Virus record (IMG/VR): IMGVR_UViG_3300042861_000491
Coordinates: 1 to 26,718 of that record
Strand: one strand, 5' to 3'
Source: a virus
DNA length: 26,718 nt
A program made the position numbers and the translations under genes. The notes beneath the pieces were generated by a model, which was given only the letters and a program-made list of their open reading frames with translations, ran no database searches and was not told the origin of the DNA. This document shows, one piece after another, positions 7,869 to 15,894 of the stretch. Every line of letters begins with the position of its first letter. Position 1 is the first letter of the stretch.

Positions 7869-8644
<776 letters not shown>

Positions 8645-8651
<7 letters not shown>

Positions 8652-12314: not shown

Positions 12315-13409
12315 TTATTCATTAGTTTGTTCTACTCCTAAAGAGCTTTGCAGTCTACCTGTAGCTTCCATAGTTTCTAACATTAGATTAACAGCGTCTC
12401 TAACTATTTCACTATGAGTCTCTTCTGATAACTCACATGATTGTTTAGTTGTTGATGACATCAATCTTGGTTTGCGAATATACGATATTGCAATCTCTTG
12501 TACAACAAAAGCTTCTGGCCCTACACGTTCAAAAAATACATCTATAGAATCTGTATGTATAATAACTAAAGGTCCTTCATACGCATTTGTTTTATTAAAA
12601 GGATCTACTTGCATTAAATACACATCATCTTGTTGTGCAAACCTATTTGGAAATACTTCCATATTCCCATTAGATTCTAAATACGTTTTAGTATTAGTAA
12701 CTTTTGTAAAGATTAAAATAGGAGGAGTTGGGTATGTACCAATTACTGTATAATACAAAACTTTTGTATCTGCAGTTGGTACTGTTATAACAATATCTCC
12801 TTTTACATTTCTATAATTACTACTATATGCTACCCATCCTGCATTAACAAAATCAGTACTTTTATTTAACGTATCTACAACAGTTTGAATAGCTAGAGTT
12901 TTTTCTTGGCTATCTAATCCTGTTAAAGTTCCTACTGGTAGTACAACTGCAGAATCTAATCTTATACCAAACAACCCATAATCTGTTAAACCAGGTATAG
13001 CAGACAAATTAATTGTAATAGTTTTAAAAGTAACATTAGTATCAACTGGAGTTAAAGTTCCGCAATAATTATGTTTTAATCTACTTCTACTAGAAGTAAG
13101 AAACATATAGTCTCCAGGAAAATAGAATTTTAATTTATCGTTATAATCAAAATCTGTAACAGGTAACTTAAAGCATTTATCGTAATAATTAGGTACAAGT
13201 AAATTTTTTAAATCGTCTATTCTTTTTTGACTCATTTCAAATCCTTGTCTTTTAGGATTAGAAAGGGCCCCATAGCGTTGTTTAATAAATCTTTCTTGCG
13301 CTCTATTTAAAAAATAATCCTTTTCTTGAGGAAGAATTATTTCATATAGATTGGAGTTAAGTTTATTTAACTCCAAGTCTATATTTAAATGCATTTCAGT
13401 TATATCCAT
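12315..13409 (-). CDS. crAss-like head-tail connector/ring protein (364 aa)
   Basis: The product starts MDITEMHLNIDLELNKLNSN. Residues 24-75 carry LPQEKDYFLNRAQERFIKQR, then NPKRQGFEMSQKRIDDLKNL. I recall this 'E-D--LN-AQ-RF-KQRY...K-GFE-SQKR-DDL--L' signature from a conserved protein of the crAss-like structural block and of other Bacteroidota podoviruses. It is usually two to three genes after the capsid and assigned to the connector rings. The middle is a beta-rich region, and the C-terminus has an acidic helix (QSCELSEETHSEIVRDAVNL). The start overlaps the upstream stop as TAATG. Connector function is inferred from family and order. Confidence 0.65.
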   Translation of the reverse strand: MDITEMHLNIDLELNKLNSNLYEIILPQEKDYFLNRAQERFIKQRYGALSNPKRQGFEMSQKRIDDLKNLLVPNYYDKCFKLPVTDFDYNDKLKFYFPGDYMFLTSSRSRLKHNYCGTLTPVDTNVTFKTITINLSAIPGLTDYGLFGIRLDSAVVLPVGTLTGLDSQEKTLAIQTVVDTLNKSTDFVNAGWVAYSSNYRNVKGDIVITVPTADTKVLYYTVIGTYPTPPILIFTKVTNTKTYLESNGNMEVFPNRFAQQDDVYLMQVDPFNKTNAYEGPLVIIHTDSIDVFFERVGPEAFVVQEIAISYIRKPRLMSSTTKQSCELSEETHSEIVRDAVNLMLETMEATGRLQSSLGVEQTNE

Positions 13410-14287
13410 TATTTACCTGCTTTTGGCTGTTTTTTAAATTCTTTTAAAGGTATTCCAAATTCTTGTAATCTTGCTTGTAGCACTACATACTCTGAAGAGT
13501 TGTTAGCGTCTTTCATCCAAGCAATAGTACCGTCTAAACTACCTAAATTACTACTACCATTTAAGAATCTATTTCCTTCTTTTATTAATATACTAGCTTC
13601 AACCATTGACATGATTTCTGCTTTGTATTGTAAATCTTTATCAGAAACTATATCTAAAAAGTATTTAGCATCTTTTTTTACTAATTCACTTATTTTAAGT
13701 TGTTTCTTTTTAGAGGTAAGAGCTAACAATTCTGTTAAGCTTCCTATCTCAGGGTATTTAATAATTACATTTCTAATTACTAGATCTAGTTTGTTTTCAT
13801 CTTCAACTAACTTAGCAAATTCAACCATTGCTTTAGTTTCAGATTCTAACTCAGTAGATTTAATTTCATCTTCTGCTTCTGGATCAGTTATATAGAACTG
13901 TAACATTTTATTGTTTTCACATTCTTCTTTAGATTTAGCTGTATATGGATGCGATAGCGCCATTTTCCATATTAGATAATCTTCAATGTTTAAAGGCATA
14001 CCTTGAGAATCTTCACCAATCTCTAATTCTGCACCTTGAAATTCTATTTTCTTTCTTAGGTTTTTATAGTAATTTGATACTGCTACTCTAAAACCTACAT
14101 CTTTAGGATTAAGGTTTACAATTACTGGCATTAACAAATCTTCTTGTTCATAAGTTAAAGGTCTAAAAACATTACCATTTCTATCCATAAAACTAGACAA
14201 TACTACAACTGTTTCATAAGCAAAAGTATCCGGAAATCCGTATCTTTTAACTTGTTTTCTCATTACTCTTACTTTTCTACTTTTCAT
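13409..14287 (-). CDS. crAss-like conserved virion protein after the capsid gene (292 aa)
   Basis: The product starts MKSRKVRVMRKQVKRYGFPD, strongly basic, then becomes acidic and helical (residues 120-260, e.g. ELESETKAMVEFAKLVEDEN). The C-terminus returns to basic (KEFKKQPKAGK). There is no signal or membrane segment. It resembles the roughly 300-residue protein that follows the capsid gene in crAss-like genomes; its virion place is not clear to me. Its ATG lies 18 nt after the 3' end of the tRNA-like element, and no promoter box is seen ahead of it. Its transcript therefore probably reads through from the capsid unit. The next gene overlaps by TAATG. Confidence 0.6.
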   Translation of the reverse strand: MKSRKVRVMRKQVKRYGFPDTFAYETVVVLSSFMDRNGNVFRPLTYEQEDLLMPVIVNLNPKDVGFRVAVSNYYKNLRKKIEFQGAELEIGEDSQGMPLNIEDYLIWKMALSHPYTAKSKEECENNKMLQFYITDPEAEDEIKSTELESETKAMVEFAKLVEDENKLDLVIRNVIIKYPEIGSLTELLALTSKKKQLKISELVKKDAKYFLDIVSDKDLQYKAEIMSMVEASILIKEGNRFLNGSSNLGSLDGTIAWMKDANNSSEYVVLQARLQEFGIPLKEFKKQPKAGK

Positions 14288-14304
14288 TTTTCTTTAAAAT
14301 TTTG

Positions 14305-14420
14305 TAAGTGTTACAGGAATCGAACCTATGGCTACCGCACTTCTGCGTTGATCAATTTTTTGTTTAATGTGAGAATCGCTTAACCTCAGTACAGTTTTTT
14401 ATACACCAGTATGAACACTT
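14305..14420 (-). tRNA. tRNA-like element with perfect acceptor and T arms but non-canonical centre
   Basis: On the minus strand a 7-bp perfect acceptor, AAGTGTT / AACACTT (14414-14420 with 14306-14312), closes 115 nt. It stacks with no linker on a 5-bp T stem with the canonical loop TTCGATT (14313-14329), followed by discriminator A. A hairpin CGCA-GAAG-TGCG (14336-14347) could be a long variable arm of the Ser/Leu/Tyr type. The D region is a 4-bp hairpin with loop TGGT. A possible anticodon loop GTACTGA (anticodon ACT) has only 4 stem pairs. The length is about 25 nt above the usual type II tRNA, no CCA is encoded, and an extra AT hairpin is present. It may be a divergent tRNA, a decayed one, or an RNA-processing mimic. 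Confidence 0.5.
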
Positions 14421-14424
14421 ATTT

Positions 14425-14452
14425 AAAGTAGGAGTTTTTAGGCTCCTACTTT
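14425..14452 (-). terminator. Hairpin terminator or attenuator after the capsid gene
   Basis: A 10-bp perfect stem, AAAGTAGGAG / CTCCTACTTT, with an 8-nt loop starts 12 nt after the capsid stop. On the minus strand it has an upstream A tract, but only a short TTT before AAAT, so termination may be partial. This suits the absence of any promoter before the next gene. In the opposite direction the T tract is better, but nothing is transcribed from that side here. Confidence 0.6.
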
Positions 14453-14463
14453 TTATTACTTTA

Positions 14464-15894
14464 CTATAAACCAGCTACACACTGTAAGTCAATAGATGTA
14501 TTAAAACGTCTAAGAACTACTTGTCCTGTTTTTAACATGTGTAATGAACTTGCATCTTTATCTGTTGAAACAGTATCGTTACCTTGTAAGCTTGGAGATA
14601 CTTCATTCATACCTTTTACCATTGCTCTAACCATACCACGTCCTTTTTTAGTAACCATTGAGATATTAGAAACACCATCATAGATTGAACTATCAACAAA
14701 GGTCATACGATAAGATTCTAAAGGTAAACCAGTTTTAGGGTGGAATAAACCTTTAGAAGCAGGACCATCATCATACAAACGATTAGTTACAATATTGATA
14801 GTGTAACCATCAACGTGTTCGTAAGTATTGAAATATCCACCTAAACGTAATTCTCTACCTTGACCAGATACGAATTTGTTATCGGTTAACTTAATATAGG
14901 TTTGACCTAATAACTCAGATTTCATTGCAGCATCAAATGCGTCACGTCCACCTGTACCAGTAAACAAAGTAATTTGTTTGTTTTGAGCATCGCTCATACC
15001 AAAGAACACATCACGAATTGTTTGCTTAATTTTTTCAGCAGTTAACTCAGAATAAGTATCTTTGTTTTGGATTTGCTCTAATAAACCAGCTCCACGGATG
15101 ATAGGATTACCTTCTTCATCTCTTTCGTTGATTTGACCAAATTGATCACGGTTTGAAGTTTCATACCAGTAGTTAGATTCGCACTCTCTACGGAATGATA
15201 ATTGATGTTGCCATTCTTCAGTTGACCACCATAATTGAGTTTCGCCACCATTTTTATTTGGTAAAGCAATACCTTTTGCACTACGTTGTTTTACGTTACC
15301 TTCCCAAGCGTAAGATTTACGGATAGTAGAAACATCACCCCTTACTTTTTGAGAACTAGTAGTAGTAGACTCTGAACCTCTTGAACCCCAAGATGCTGCA
15401 GCGTACCAACCTAATGAATACAATGCTCCAGCAGCTAATTCACTTGCAGGAATAAATTCACTTGCAGATTTAGCACCAGCAATTTTTACAGTATACTGCC
15501 ATAAACCACCAATGTTTTTACGATCTGTAATTACTAAATGGTAGTTACGTGGAGAAATAATTGTGTATTTGTTAGGGAAAATACCTTCGTTAAAAGTAAT
15601 GTTAAATGAACTAAAGCCAGCACCAGCGTTAGCAGTTGATACTGCAGAAGCTAAAGGAACAGCTTTAAATAGACGACCCATTACATCATATTCAAACTCA
15701 TCACCTTCAATTTCCATTGTAGAACGAGCGCCTTCTGATAAAACGTGAAGCGGAAAACGATTATCCTCGTAGCCCATTAAATAGGTTAATACTGGAGTTA
15801 ATTTGTCTGGTTGAAGCATCAACTGACGAGCCAATGAGGCGTCGTTAGTTTTCATTTCTTCATTCCATGTTTGAGATGTTATTAATCTTGCCAT
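14464..15894 (-). CDS. Major capsid protein (476 aa)
   Basis: The product starts MARLITSQTWNEEMKTNDAS and is of HK97-fold size. Order (terminase, portal, scaffold-like, this gene), length and mixed alpha/beta make-up point to the major capsid protein. Visible features: an N-terminal helix region with LTYLMGYEDNRFPLHVL; a ready E-loop-like charged stretch (GDEFEYDVMGRL); a central aromatic segment (ETQLWWSTEEWQHQLSFRRE); and KQITLFTGTGGRDAFDAAM around residue 300, typical of the central A-domain of crAss-like capsids as I recall. The gene ends in TAG directly followed by TAA, and a hairpin follows. The fold is not proven by sequence alone, but no other gene in the block fits as well. Confidence 0.8.
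   Translation of the reverse strand: MARLITSQTWNEEMKTNDASLARQLMLQPDKLTPVLTYLMGYEDNRFPLHVLSEGARSTMEIEGDEFEYDVMGRLFKAVPLASAVSTANAGAGFSSFNITFNEGIFPNKYTIISPRNYHLVITDRKNIGGLWQYTVKIAGAKSASEFIPASELAAGALYSLGWYAAASWGSRGSESTTTSSQKVRGDVSTIRKSYAWEGNVKQRSAKGIALPNKNGGETQLWWSTEEWQHQLSFRRECESNYWYETSNRDQFGQINERDEEGNPIIRGAGLLEQIQNKDTYSELTAEKIKQTIRDVFFGMSDAQNKQITLFTGTGGRDAFDAAMKSELLGQTYIKLTDNKFVSGQGRELRLGGYFNTYEHVDGYTINIVTNRLYDDGPASKGLFHPKTGLPLESYRMTFVDSSIYDGVSNISMVTKKGRGMVRAMVKGMNEVSPSLQGNDTVSTDKDASSLHMLKTGQVVLRRFNTSIDLQCVAGL

Follow-up and report, generated by a model that had tools for sequence, protein, structure and literature searches.

What is a tRNA-shaped RNA that cannot decode doing directly behind the major capsid protein gene of a phage? 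The window analyzed here, a 26,718-nt fragment from IMG/VR, belongs to a crAss-like phage, as its capsid protein matches the Pfam family Crass_capsid, and it also encodes a portal protein and a terminase, with the late genes on the minus strand. A nucleotide search of the phage collection returned no match, the protein search led to crAss-like phages at about 30% identity, and a search of GTDB genomes for the host found one distant relative (41% identity), present in a metagenome-assembled genome binned as Gammaproteobacteria, an uninformative hit. The element of interest lies between two same-strand protein genes, the capsid gene and the gene that follows it, in a 176-nt gap (positions 14288 to 14463) with almost no spare sequence (Table 1). 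The product of the next gene (292 aa) has no match in Pfam or PHROG, and the sole minus-strand promoter-like match near the gap (14492 to 14463) is at chance level and overlaps the end of the capsid gene. Elsewhere in the window, positions 7869 to 8651 encode a collagen-like protein that carries long stretches of Gly-X-Y repeats.

Table 1. Features of the capsid gene and of the gap behind it, in window coordinates
Feature	Position	Strand	Remarks
Major capsid protein gene (Crass_capsid)	14464..15894	-	Pfam PF23898, 241 bits; PHROG 11589, 274 bits
Hairpin closing the capsid transcript, AAAGUAGGAG-CCUAAAAA-CUCCUACUUU	14425..14452	-	No U-run behind it on the minus strand; every relative in the clade has one
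Spacer of 4 nt, would-be RNase P leader	14421..14424	-	2-5 nt long in all 17 representative elements
tRNA-like element, 116 nt	14305..14420	-	Descriptor match; Rfam tRNA, 17.1 bits over exactly the same bounds
Acceptor stem, 5' strand, AAGUGUU	14414..14420	-	7 Watson-Crick pairs with 14306-14312
Small D-arm-like hairpin, AUAC-UGGU-GUAU	14401..14412	-	Minimum-energy fold; comparison gives no confirmation
Centre replacing the anticodon arm	14334..14395	-	Two candidate folds: an 8-bp stem ACUGUACU/AGUGCGGU enclosing a loop of 46 nt, or a set of small hairpins
T arm, AUAGG-UUCGAUU-CCUGU	14313..14329	-	5 pairs; canonical T loop
Acceptor stem, 3' strand, AACACUU	14306..14312	-	Pairs with 14414-14420; discriminator A at 14305
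Next gene, 292 aa, no known family	13409..14287	-	Behind the element; conserved in relatives

The initial annotation had described a perfect 7-bp acceptor stem and 5-bp T arm joined without a linker at positions 14305 to 14420, and this proved exact when the pairs were rederived. A descriptor that combines a 7-bp acceptor, a 5-bp T stem and a TTCRANN loop within a span of 60 to 130 nt matches once in the whole window, at the element, and in none of 60 first-order Markov shuffles of the window (0.03 matches per shuffled window when one wobble is allowed). The T stem pairs 14325-14329 with 14313-14317, including one G-U pair, around a loop at 14318-14324, and an eighth acceptor pair is possible (U14421-A14305). 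Under free folding, acceptor pair probabilities are mostly 0.96 to 0.99 (0.79 and 0.63 at the ends) and those of the T arm 0.69 to 0.81, and the centre is divided between two rival folds of about 0.33 each (pair probabilities of 0.30 to 0.33 versus 0.25 to 0.35). An 8-bp central arm, initially favored, was dropped as no better than shuffled sequence (its length is at chance level, 137 of 500 shuffles), and the folding energy of the whole element is ordinary (z = -0.49), so that the extra hairpins that the annotation had also placed in the centre are not established. The acceptor and T arm of the window element, in short, are established, and the fold of its centre is not determinable from one sequence.

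Like decoding tRNAs, the element has a 7-bp acceptor and, stacked on it with no linker, a T arm of 5 bp with a TTCRANN loop. A 7-nt anticodon loop on a 5-bp stem is absent from both competing folds, ARAGORN calls no tRNA at the element in its default, intron or mitochondrial modes, and the Rfam tRNA covariance model, although it aligns over exactly the 116 nt of the element, scores 17.1 bits, under the cutoff of 29. The window element is not a decodable tRNA, and the suggestion of a divergent serine-type tRNA finds no support, on the same three points. Under relaxed settings ARAGORN weakly reads the element as tRNA-Phe(gaa), the anticodon loop being interrupted by a 43-nt insert. In IMG/VR, a 17-mer from the 5' half of the element has four matches, none of them a tRNA-like copy, and the search found no second copy of this version of the element. 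A tmRNA was considered and rejected, as the window has no match to Rfam RF00023 and ARAGORN -m returns none; a tmRNA-like gene was observed in another crAss-like contig (L157:990-1370; G001:C1 ~28190-28570, minus strand; Rfam tmRNA, 92 bits, E = 1.8e-35), where ARAGORN makes no call.

Searches with the capsid and next-gene proteins yielded over 70 distinct contigs, among which the clade of the window is defined by a capsid of 476 to 477 aa and a sister clade by one of 482 aa. In the window's capsid clade, 26 contigs span the gap, counting the window itself, and every one has a tRNA or a tRNA-like element there; in one case the contig end truncates it. The slot has a constant layout, in which the capsid stop is followed by the hairpin, 2 to 5 nt, the element, 13 to 24 nt and an ATG; the hairpin-to-element spacing holds across 13 representatives of this clade and 4 of the sister clade, and the distance from element to ATG is 13 to 24 nt in the former and 9 to 16 nt in the latter. 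The window fits this layout, its hairpin standing 4 nt from the element, as annotated, and its ATG 17 nt away. The 26 occupants comprise tRNA-Met(cat) (6 contigs), tRNA-Trp(cca) (2), a form that we call type C (12), another that we call type D (5, including the one cut by the contig end) and the version in the window (1); the contigs are metagenomic, so assembly error is possible, and most element types recur in several samples. At least three kinds of occupant lack a 7-nt anticodon loop: type C has acceptor, D and T arms with a loop of 3 to 6 nt where the anticodon loop would be, and in type D the loop is 6 nt long and the D loop lacks GG. The closest relatives of the window (95 to 98% capsid identity) carry genuine Met or Trp tRNAs in the slot.

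That such different occupants can replace one another is clearest in two phages, L011 (type C) and L012 (tRNA-Met), whose upstream flanks mismatch at 9 of 4,466 nt, with the nearest 1.69 kb free of mismatches, and whose downstream flanks mismatch at 2 of 811 nt; between these flanks the element is wholly different, with its boundaries at identical points. On the capsid tree, occupant labels require 15 changes over 64 rows, an upper estimate because incomplete loci (such as L113, L122 and L136) are scored as element-less. In a further pair, L114 and L120 (99.6% identical), the tRNA-Met behind the next gene differs in the anticodon stem (compensated) and the T loop, so the tRNA changes faster than its flanks. 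From these sequence comparisons, the L011/L012 flanks together with the L114/L120 pair and the changes on the capsid tree, the natural alleles of one site include both a decoding tRNA and a non-decoding shape. The gap of the window itself looks recombinant, with a hairpin resembling those of L009 and L005, a downstream flank resembling that of L002 and an element unlike both.

Aligning the same gap in relatives revealed compensating changes in type C, to which the covariation count was confined because aligning all slot types together puts the acceptor columns out of register from one type to another. All variation in the type C acceptor and T stems is compensatory (two acceptor pairs and one T pair, with double changes of C-G to U-A, G-C to A-U and G-C to A-U), pairing is complete (100%) in the acceptor, D and T cells, and the arm at the anticodon position also covaries, despite its varying loop length. 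None of 500 shuffles reaches the type C covariation score, a control limited by the relatedness of the rows, and a sliding-partner control, which preserves that relatedness, destroys the signal. The arms are nearly unchanged between phages whose capsid third codon positions are 50 to 62% identical: within the 53-nt top half, 52 positions are identical between L011 and L023 (third codon positions, 62%) and 47 agree between L011 and L100 (52%). The T-half motif of type C occurs 12 times in IMG/VR, always at this slot; its D-arm pattern also matches ordinary tRNAs of other phages, and its lower acceptor is weak (a UU/C mismatch).

The initial annotation had allowed that the element might be a relic. 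For the type C family, conserved and compensatory as its aligned members appear, that reading is rejected; for the single-copy version in the window, for which no homologue was found, it retains some weight, and we consider it unlikely. It would hold that the slot normally carries a decoding tRNA and that in the window a central insertion of about 40 nt has recently disrupted such a tRNA gene, which would fit the real Met and Trp tRNAs of the closest relatives, the tRNA-Phe(gaa) reading with its 43-nt insert and the lack of a second copy in the searches. The acceptor and T arm of the window are flawless, however, and since many phages carry type C or D elements, which have no anticodon loop, and conservation of type C is strong, loss of decoding in this slot does not amount to decay.

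The hairpin between capsid stop and element offers a separate line of evidence. In the window it is not a canonical terminator on the minus strand, because no U-run extends beyond its own stem; on the plus strand it has a T-rich tail behind it and is scored as a terminator, and no plus-strand gene was identified there. The sister clade has no element after the capsid gene, and the longest U-runs behind its capsid hairpin measure 4 to 8, versus 2 to 4 in the element-bearing clade (Mann-Whitney p = 5e-4 with one row per distinct hairpin, 9 versus 8; the hairpins are related, not independent). Nine of the 20 sister-clade contigs covering the second gap carry a hairpin without a U-run and a tRNA-Met behind the next gene, and thus the same module at a second site. 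In L110, L116, L119, L124 and L126, the gap behind the next gene holds a short conserved segment, GAGCCGACGAGTTTAGTCGGTTTCA, instead of the tRNA-Met.

Across related contigs that total about 399 kb, none of them demonstrably complete, the slot tRNA-Met is the sole canonical tRNA that ARAGORN calls, and the descriptor finds three further elements with abnormal centres, all in noncoding gaps, and none in shuffles. This inventory, one canonical tRNA and three abnormal elements, makes it seem that the slot tRNA is not part of a codon-supply set and that tRNA-shaped RNAs are kept for a non-decoding purpose. The aberrant tRNA-like elements of related phages at L154:963-1075, L156:878-1014 and L155:1019-1081, each in a noncoding gap, comprise two Leu-like forms with large central insertions and one of 62 nt without an anticodon arm.

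Such a purpose might be served in trans, by a free small RNA acting as a decoy for host tRNA-targeting defense enzymes or as a tRNA-binding regulator, its place beside the capsid gene only boosting expression. An arms race could yield an occupant that evolves faster than its flanks, and the further aberrant tRNA-like elements elsewhere in related phages would suit this reading, yet a decoy for anticodon nucleases should retain the anticodon loop, the very part that is lost, and this reading would explain neither the fixed spacing of 2 to 5 nt behind the hairpin nor the longer U-runs of loci that lack the element; we regard it as improbable. We give still less credence to a recombination or integration site, at which tRNA-like sequence would be kept as a point of attachment or exchange: the boundary-precise swap between near-identical phages (L011 and L012) and the window's combination of an L009-like hairpin with an L002-like downstream flank fit it, but a DNA site has no need of an entire folded element kept with compensatory changes, as in type C, and no inserted DNA or duplicated half was seen. 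Hardly credible at all is a working tRNA from which the 43-nt insert is spliced, as the insert's place in the anticodon loop of the relaxed ARAGORN model could suggest: the D arm is also non-canonical, Rfam finds no intron family (a group I intron was rejected on this ground and on the insert being merely ~43 nt), and bacterial tRNA introns are, to our knowledge, self-splicing and far longer.

That a tRNA shape is always present, decoding or not, suggests that the phage needs the shape itself, which would probably serve as a cutting signal for the tRNA-trimming enzymes of the cell. We think it likely that the element is a tRNA-shaped processing mark for RNase P (and RNase Z) that forms the 3' end of the capsid mRNA. 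The initial annotation had proposed a tRNA-shaped signal separating the capsid message from the downstream genes, and the relatives support this well through the fixed position and geometry, the interchangeable occupants, the loss of the anticodon loop, the conserved and compensated stems of type C and the longer U-runs of the sister clade; cleavage by RNase P and RNase Z is predicted. A late transcript would run from the capsid gene through its 3' hairpin and the element into the next gene, and host RNase P would cut at the 5' end of the acceptor, between 14420 and 14421 and 4 nt past the hairpin, so that a protective and possibly stabilizing hairpin would close the capsid mRNA. The other boundary, near 14305/14304, would be processed by RNase Z or exonucleases, and the message of the next gene would start with a leader of about 17 nt. 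Selection would act on the acceptor and T-arm half, which RNase P and RNase Z read, and the anticodon arm would be free of constraint, so that real tRNAs and non-decoding elements could replace each other. For the clade as a whole we lean, with less assurance, toward the broader proposal that the capsid mRNA 3' end is made by RNase P at a dedicated mark and not by transcription termination, tRNAs and their anticodon-less mimics being interchangeable alleles of a cis site.

Several points weigh against a processing mark as the whole account. The hairpin could still terminate some transcripts, and selection may also favor decoding, since canonical Met or Trp tRNAs account for 6 of the 13 representative types or subtypes in the comparison. 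As far as its contigs tell, much of the sister clade manages without an element after the capsid gene, as do all the distant crAss-like phages sampled (absent in all five examined, at about 30% identity). The window's own version, single-copy and with rival folds in its centre, may be a relic.

Elements of this arrangement are known from other systems. RNase III sites between the genes of T7-type phages cut the polycistronic message and leave a hairpin at its 3' end; the slot resembles them in placing structured RNA between phage genes and a hairpin at a message 3' end, and differs in the enzyme and in having a tRNA fold in place of a double-stranded hairpin. The precursor of the C4 antisense RNA of phages P1 and P7 is described as cut by bacterial RNase P (Hartmann 1995, cited in PMC11143913) and would share with the element the role of a phage RNA as substrate of that enzyme (predicted here), but C4, in that description, with which the likeness was drawn and not with its sequence, is a regulatory antisense RNA and does not lie between structural genes. 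Closer in layout is mitochondrial tRNA punctuation, in which tRNAs between protein genes are excised, freeing the mRNAs (PMC8437803, PMC8601606); a tRNA shape between protein genes is common to both, but the organellar tRNAs decode, whereas several occupants here cannot, and the host here is bacterial. RNase P also removes the cotranscribed mascRNA and menRNA to form the 3' ends of MALAT1 and NEAT1, leaving MALAT1 with a triple helix (PMC10869381). As proposed here, a tRNA-like element sets the 3' end of the upstream RNA in those cases, with a protective structure upstream of it (a triple helix there, a hairpin here), but those are vertebrate nuclear long noncoding RNAs with proven cleavage, whereas a phage capsid mRNA with predicted cleavage is at issue here, and the phage slot alternates real tRNAs with non-decoding elements at one site. 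Within the same phage order, the tRNA genes known from crAss-like phages include stop-codon suppressors (PMC7886860), and those are tRNA sets and suppressors. The open-access literature searched holds no matching report of a conserved single slot behind the capsid gene or of non-decoding occupants, which is not proof of absence.

If the proposed mechanism is true, these phages would use the cell's tRNA-maturation enzymes to cut their most abundant structural message, at a mark that would evolve from tRNA genes and lose the ability to decode, an arrangement that would parallel, in phages, both the tRNA punctuation of mitochondria and the way in which MALAT1 acquires its 3' end. L011 and L012 provide a natural pair of alleles for a direct test of shape versus decoding. 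Some of the single, odd or broken-looking tRNAs of phages would then have a role outside translation, which would counsel caution before they are labeled pseudogenes.
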